A DNA stretch of 32,575 nucleotides from Candidatus Woesearchaeota archaeon (lineage in GTDB: Archaea > Nanobdellota > Nanobdellia > Woesearchaeales > GW2011-AR9). Location of the stretch: positions 1-32,575 of the forward strand of contig JABIJM010000013.1 in the NCBI GenBank assembly GCA_018655525.1, read 5' to 3'. The notes under the pieces are model-generated. The model saw nothing but the letters and a program-made list of their open reading frames with translations. It made no database searches and was not told the origin of the DNA. Both the position numbers and the translations under genes were made by a program. Positions 31,072 through 32,007 of the stretch are shown in pieces. How positions within the stretch are numbered: position 1 is the first letter of the stretch; each line of letters starts with the position of its first letter.

Positions 31072-31084
31072 CTTTATAAATAAC
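31072..31084. promoter_or_regulatory. Single bidirectional TATA box, metallophosphoesterase and tRNA-Asn
   Basis: CTTTATAAATAAC is centred at 31078, exactly midway between the minus-strand ATG (31051) and the tRNA 5' end (31105), 27 nt from each. One TATA box can serve both a leaderless mRNA and a tRNA. Confidence 0.65.
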
Positions 31085-31119
31085 TTATGTTTGAGAATGA
31101 TTATGCCCCTGTGGCTTAG

Positions 31120-31142
31120 ACTTAGGTAAAACTAAGGAGCAA
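31120..31142 (+). other. Probable D-loop intron of tRNA-Asn
   Basis: The insert folds with its exons: helix GCTT (31114-31117) with GAGC (31137-31140, one wobble), bulge AG|A on one strand, inner helix CTTAG/CTAAG with loop GTAAAA, and bulge AA|T on the other. Cutting between the second and third bulge bases restores an 8-nt D loop. The outer helix is weak, so it is a relaxed bulge-helix-bulge. Confidence 0.65.
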
Positions 31143-31164
31143 TGGTTATAGCATGCGGCTGTTA

Positions 31165-31180
31165 TCCTTTATGGGAAGAT
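31165..31180 (+). other. Anticodon-loop intron (37/38) of tRNA-Asn
   Basis: The 16-nt intron fits a bulge-helix-bulge: outer helix TGCGG/CCGCA, bulge AT|A, central CTGT/GAAG (one G-A mismatch and one wobble), bulge TA|T, inner CC/GG with loop TTTAT. The cut sites predicted by the bulges rebuild the loop CTGTTAA. Confidence 0.8.
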
Positions 31181-31197
31181 ACCGCAGGATCATCGGT

Positions 31198-32007
31198 TCA
31201 AATCCGATCAGGGGCGCTCACGAGGGGATTTATTCCCCTCACTTTTAATAATTCTAAACGGTCGTTTATATTTGTTCCTTTTGGTAAATATCCATATTCT
31301 TTCCAAACACGGTATCTTGTAATTGAATTATAGCTTGAATATCCTACTTCTTCAATCCATTTTGAAAGATTTTTTTTACCATTTATCTCAATTTGATGAC
31401 TAACAAAGGGTTTATCTATTCTAATTCTATTATATGTAGCAGAAAAAATATTAAAATCCATTTCAATTAATAATTCTTTAAGAGAATCATGAAGCGTTTT
31501 ACTATTTGTTGCATGACTGATTACTGGATATTTTCCTCCCTTCTTGAAGACAAGACTAAAATCGGTGTCTGCAATCCCTCTAAGGAAAGCTCGTTTTATC
31601 TTCATATTTGAATTAAGTATGGGTTTTGGAATTCTTATGTTTGTTTTAGGGCTAAAAGAAATGTCACAAGAGTTATGGAGGAATGTTAATATTGCTTTAG
31701 ATCTAATTTCAATTTTTACAATATTTTTTGTAGATTTTGTTATATTAACTTTTTTATTGAATAAATTATTAATAAGTGGTTTTATGAATTCAATATACCA
31801 TTGGTATTCATTAATTTGATGTCCTCCATATAAAAGATGATAATCCCATTTGTTTTTTCTAATTTTAAGCTTCATGTATCCATCACCCACATGAAACCCT
31901 AAAAAATACGCTAATTCTTCTGTAAGAAATTCGGGAACTTTAATCCCAAGACGTTTGTCGTTGTTGCTATATTCTACTTTTGATAAATCTAATTTTTTCA
32001 TTTTCAC
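31198..32007 (-). CDS. LAGLIDADG-type homing endonuclease
   Basis: The 269-residue product has two LAGLIDADG-like motifs, ELAYFLGFHVGDG (31-43, Asp42) and AFLRGIADTDFS (140-151, Asp149), each followed by a beta-rich DNA-contact region. This is the single-chain two-motif layout. Such enzymes cut one long target and help introns or their own gene to spread. The last six codons are antisense to the 3' 19 nt of the intron-bearing tRNA-Asn. The start may be the GTG at 32007 (leaderless by TATA spacing) or the ATG two codons later. Asp149 is followed by Phe, not Gly, so activity is not certain. Confidence 0.82.
   Translation of the reverse strand: MKMKKLDLSKVEYSNNDKRLGIKVPEFLTEELAYFLGFHVGDGYMKLKIRKNKWDYHLLYGGHQINEYQWYIEFIKPLINNLFNKKVNITKSTKNIVKIEIRSKAILTFLHNSCDISFSPKTNIRIPKPILNSNMKIKRAFLRGIADTDFSLVFKKGGKYPVISHATNSKTLHDSLKELLIEMDFNIFSATYNRIRIDKPFVSHQIEINGKKNLSKWIEEVGYSSYNSITRYRVWKEYGYLPKGTNINDRLELLKVRGINPLVSAPDRI
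31222..31240 (+). terminator. Hairpin after tRNA-Asn
   Basis: GAGGGG and CCCCTC flank a 7-nt loop, five bases after the tRNA, followed by ACTTTT. It may end or process the tRNA transcript. It lies inside the endonuclease coding region on the other strand, so the repeat might also be chance. Confidence 0.4.

Follow-up and report, generated by a model that had tools for sequence, protein, structure and literature searches.

A two-intron tRNA-Asn gene in a Woesearchaeota genome: recurrence of its D-loop intron across the order and a single detectable EndA of alpha4 appearance

The stretch of DNA analysed here (the window; 32,575 nt of contig JABIJM010000013.1, GenBank assembly GCA_018655525.1, Candidatus Woesearchaeota archaeon, genome G000) contains, at positions 31105–31216 (+), a tRNA-Asn(GUU) gene interrupted by two introns. 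It is the only tRNA-Asn(GUU) gene detected in the genome, and very probably it would be transcribed into a two-intron pre-tRNA that is cleaved by the splicing endonuclease EndA and ligated by RtcB. Judged from the sequence of the motif and its pattern of change among relatives, it is almost certain that the D-loop insert is spliced out as an intron, and its general kind is known; what is surprising is its recurrence across the lineage, the existence of relatives with five introns in the same tRNA, and the mismatch with the type of endonuclease encoded.

The gene comprises exon 1 (31105–31119, tRNA positions 1–15), a 23-nt D-loop intron at position 15/16 (31120–31142; ACUUAGGUAAAACUAAGGAGCAA), exon 2 (31143–31164, positions 16–37, with the anticodon GUU), a 16-nt anticodon-loop intron at position 37/38 (31165–31180; UCCUUUAUGGGAAGAU), and exon 3 (31181–31216, positions 38–73), all on the (+) strand. 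Joining of the exons yields a tRNA of 73 nt with a fully paired acceptor stem (7/7) and T stem (5/5), and 20 of the 21 cloverleaf pairs are formed, U13–U22 in the D stem being the sole mismatch. An earlier note on this DNA had proposed two introns of the bulge-helix-bulge (BHB) type, of 23 and 16 nt, within 31105–31216, with a perfect 73-nt tRNA-Asn as the product; the introns, the coordinates and the length are right, while "perfect" slightly overstates the pairing. A TATA-box-like promoter element (TTTATAAATA; 31073–31082, +), read in the sequence about 27 bp 5' of the tRNA, is identical in the sister genome (G002). The hairpin GAGGGGA...UCCCCUC, which is followed by UUUU (31222–31240, +), is also kept there and may represent a 3'-end or terminator structure. 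ARAGORN and Rfam reported only a tRNA-Leu in the window, and the Rfam tRNA model also missed the tRNA-Asn gene in a search of the whole genome, so standard annotation would lose this gene.

The D-loop intron can be folded into a well-defined splice motif. Its central helix is formed by exon nucleotides 31114–31117 (GCUU, positions 10–13) and intron nucleotides 31137–31140 (GAGC), and its inner helix of 5 bp by 31121–31125 and 31132–31136, which enclose a loop at 31126–31131 (sequence reading and fold). The 5' bulge is the 3-nt AG^A, and the 3' bulge reads AA^U. Among the nine registers tried, only one restores the tRNA, and the same register alone has all four central-helix pairs. Reading of the sequence showed no outer helix, as positions 7–9 are unpaired with the nucleotides past the 3' site; the motif is therefore of the relaxed HBh' form, a known class, and not of the strict hBHBh' form, in agreement with the earlier description of a relaxed motif lacking a firm outer helix. 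The second intron is of the canonical kind and occupies the same site as the canonical archaeal 37/38 intron, but it differs by a G34–A mismatch that leaves three of the four central-helix pairs. Of the 4-bp central helix which, with an adjoining 3-nt bulge, characterises archaeal BHB tRNA introns, 4/4 pairs are formed in the D loop and 3/4 at 37/38.

In the proposed splicing pathway, GCUU, which is the 5' half of the D stem, would pair in the precursor with GAGC at the 3' end of the intron, and not with its mature partner UAGC. The resulting 4-bp central helix would lie between the 3-nt bulge (AG^A, followed by the intron hairpin) and the open 3' junction (AA^U), EndA would cleave each bulge 3' of its second base, and the exons would then be ligated by RtcB. 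Removal of the insert would free GCUU for the true D stem, and the 37/38 intron would be excised likewise at its canonical site. The single EndA would presumably act alone, as a homotetramer with a specificity broader than that described for alpha4 enzymes. Observations that count against this explanation include the alpha4-like EndA, since alpha4 enzymes are reported to be poor on relaxed motifs (PMC6379350), and the G–A mismatch in the 37/38 helix.

A pattern search followed by reading of the loci revealed the 15/16 D-loop intron in 36 of the 352 genomes of the order (Woesearchaeota metagenome-assembled genomes), distributed over 17 of 88 families, and tRNA-Asn was the host in every locus resolved. 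As the survey pattern contained GAGCAA, the 4/4 central helix of these matches is partly given by construction; the inner helix lay outside the pattern. Another pattern, without any BHB feature, retrieved 20 D-region inserts, 19 of which have a 4/4 central helix by reading; 12 are located at 15/16, seven at 20/21, and one is an apparent chance match. The 20/21 inserts make up a second class among the D-loop introns of tRNA-Asn; their central helix is complete as well, and they end in CUGUAA or similar (genomes G123, G156, G165, G174, G176, G182 and G216). The D loop of tRNA-Asn is uninterrupted in most genomes of the order; many relatives have a 37/38 intron, which in several of them shares its GAAGAU/GAAGAA-type end with that of the window gene. 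A second intron in the D loop had been called rare; in published work a D-loop intron is indeed rare, but within the order it recurs. In a scan of contigs, the bacterial matches L156 and L159 (two of three) were found to be chance matches in protein-coding DNA, without a tRNA. The third, L162:3010–3067 (+), is a genuine tRNA-Asn that carries the same intron in its D loop; its contig is labelled Cloacimonadota bacterium and is probably a mis-binned archaeal contig.

The tRNA-Asn genes of the relatives contain from one to five introns each according to an automatic resolver, which required a fit to the Asn template and no fewer than 3/4 central pairs. In a few relatives this resolver put the 37/38 intron in the wrong place, and it undercounted L055, which was given three introns and has four by reading. 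Five introns were found in L030 (G103), L053 (G032, which shares its family with the window genome) and L067 (G284), at positions 15/16, 30/31, 37/38, 43/44 or 44/45, and 59/60, which recur across independent genomes. The closed, 100% complete genome G046 has a tRNA-Asn with three introns. By comparison, the archaeal maximum found in the literature is three introns per tRNA (PMC8450103, PMC4390854); for Asgard tRNAs multiple introns are described, and the part of that text consulted gives no maximum (PMC11291895). In the literature searched, no paper dealt with the tRNA introns of Woesearchaeota. Non-canonical BHB introns of Thermoproteales, Nanoarchaeota, Thaumarchaeota and Asgard archaea are short, with a 4-bp central helix and a 3-nt bulge, as here, and the relaxed HBh' form, D-arm positions and several introns per tRNA are already known among them (PMC4090602, PMC6379350, PMC4390854, PMC11291895). 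Position 15/16 is not named in the consulted text of PMC4090602, whose list ends in "etc.". The introns described here differ from those known in forming a recurrent, lineage-wide family in tRNA-Asn. Within the window genome, canonical introns are found in other tRNAs as well, and tRNA-Pro(UGG), tRNA-Cys(GCA), tRNA-iMet and tRNA-Phe(GAA) (loci L110, L112, L114 and L106) apparently have non-canonical introns, with apparent sites in the D arm, at about 22/23, at 53/54, and at 30/31 plus 37/38.

The genome encodes one RtcB gene and one EndA gene, the latter specifying a protein of about 200 aa that combines a single N domain with a single C domain and has the catalytic Tyr, His and Lys intact. 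Its best matches among solved structures are the alpha subunit of Nanoarchaeum equitans (3iey, the closest), a two-repeat EndA-like protein (5x89) and the EndA of Methanocaldococcus jannaschii. EndA was detected in 307 of 344 genomes of the order, almost always as a single gene; when 11 genomes, among them the closed G046, were searched with a profile built from the EndAs of the order, each gave exactly one. No insertion at the site of the crenarchaea-specific loop (CSL) of S. tokodaii is seen in any of 31 aligned EndAs from the order, and the loop with its lysine is absent there. The ARMAN-specific loop (ASL) with its lysine may be lacking too: the same alignment shows no long insertion, and a three-unit fused EndA of the epsilon2 kind was not found. 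Judged by these features, the EndA looks like an alpha4 enzyme. It resembles the M. jannaschii-type alpha4 EndA in being a single gene of about 200 aa with N and C domains, the Tyr-His-Lys triad and no CSL, but unlike that type it is nearest in sequence to N. equitans alpha, and the EndAs of the order co-occur with many relaxed non-canonical introns. Efficient cutting of relaxed motifs has been reported only for (alpha-beta)2 and epsilon2 enzymes, and not for alpha4 (PMC6379350, PMC12397907). The (alpha-beta)2 enzymes of Crenarchaeota and N. equitans, or the epsilon2 enzyme of ARMAN-2, would explain the cleavage of such motifs; in contrast to these, neither a second subunit nor a three-unit fusion was found here, nor a CSL at the corresponding site. 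The earlier expectation of an endonuclease with recognisably broad specificity was not borne out by the genome, which has one detectable EndA of narrow, alpha4 appearance: either this EndA has a wider specificity than has been assumed, or there is a partner that has escaped detection.

It is possible, if somewhat doubtful, that such a partner is a divergent structural subunit, which either goes unrecognised by the Pfam and NCBIfam models or is encoded in the ~6% of the genome absent from the assembly, and which would give a broad, (alpha-beta)2-like enzyme; this alternative concerns the enzyme only. It would fit the fact that the nearest solved relative, N. equitans alpha, works with a beta subunit, the view that relaxed motifs need (alpha-beta)2 or epsilon2 enzymes, and the presence of a conserved gene of no known family directly 3' of endA in most relatives checked. 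Against it, no second EndA subunit was matched in the 93.6% complete assembly by PF01974, PF02778, NF007085 or the profile of the order's EndAs, and the closed G046, with its three-intron tRNA-Asn, has one EndA only. The endA neighbour itself (L021:178–1431, −; homologs in L073–L102) has no Pfam family and encodes a protein with a winged-helix-like N-terminal part and a basic C-terminal domain of about 100 aa. As a hidden EndA subunit it was rejected, having no profile similarity to EndA and no convincing PDB match; it is possibly a partner of EndA. A more far-reaching reading, possible though rather less likely than not, is that in this order a single-gene, alpha4-like EndA without the CSL cuts relaxed introns of the D loop, anticodon stem, variable region and T loop, up to five per tRNA, and that its broad specificity was gained by an undescribed route, possibly together with a conserved partner encoded directly after endA.

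Comparison with the sister genome argues for selection on the splice motif. The tRNA-Asn gene of G002 is 91% identical and keeps both introns, all intron differences being confined to the D-loop intron (the 37/38 intron is identical); the exons are the same apart from one compensated T-stem pair. In the D-loop hairpin, CUUAG/CUAAG is replaced by CCCAG/CUGGG, a compensatory change. Across 28 distinct D-loop introns of the order, 96% of the named pairs form, compared with 83% in shuffles and 33–45% when the introns are slid, and 42 two-sided changes were counted against 12.9 expected from shuffles, with a similar figure from an independent count. The inner helix covaries far above both the shuffled and the slid controls. 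Such compensatory changes, in G002 and across the 28 introns, indicate that the D-loop BHB motif is under selection. A stable, covarying hairpin would also be expected of RNA that is kept in the mature molecule, as a D-arm expansion. Retention of the insert is nevertheless very unlikely, because GCUU would then be paired to the insert, so that the true D stem and G18–G19 would lose their arm, because excision gives an identical mature tRNA throughout the relatives, many of which have no insert, and because the archaeal splice motif is just such a 4-bp helix plus a 3-nt bulge, with AA^ on the 3' side.

A search of the genome, among its tRNA matches and by an Asn pattern, found no second tRNA-Asn, in a census that rests on searches by which multi-intron genes can be missed. 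Together with the TATA box kept in G002, this indicates that 31105–31216 is a functional gene and not a decayed copy. Although the genome is a draft, 93.6% complete, it is hardly credible that the gene is decayed or damaged by assembly while an intact tRNA-Asn exists elsewhere, given that none was found and that G002 has unchanged exons but for the compensated T-stem pair and compensatory changes in the intron.

The convergent neighbour of the tRNA gene is a LAGLIDADG_3 homing-endonuclease-like ORF (31198–32007, −), placed tail to tail with it and terminating at a stop codon within the T loop of the tRNA; the ORF is not needed for splicing. LAGLIDADG genes 3' of tRNA-Asn are also present in the sister genome (84%) and in other families (G100, 45%; G025, 27%). 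In the window genome, 5 of 14 LAGLIDADG places are less than 700 bp from a tRNA (post-hoc binomial p of about 0.00015). Besides the window locus, these observations concern L010, L143, L017 and L106. A general link between LAGLIDADG genes and D-loop introns was rejected, as most intron-bearing tRNA-Asn loci have no homolog.

According to the current model, the diversity of tRNA introns co-evolved with the architecture of EndA, and relaxed introns occur only together with (alpha-beta)2 or epsilon2 enzymes. Since common tRNA finders miss genes of the kind described here, genomes that carry them can seem to be without tRNA-Asn. The lineage appears to break the rule on EndA architecture across dozens of genomes, one of them closed, and it offers ready substrates for testing that rule, namely a single tRNA interrupted at fixed positions by one to five introns, along with only one gene for the enzyme.
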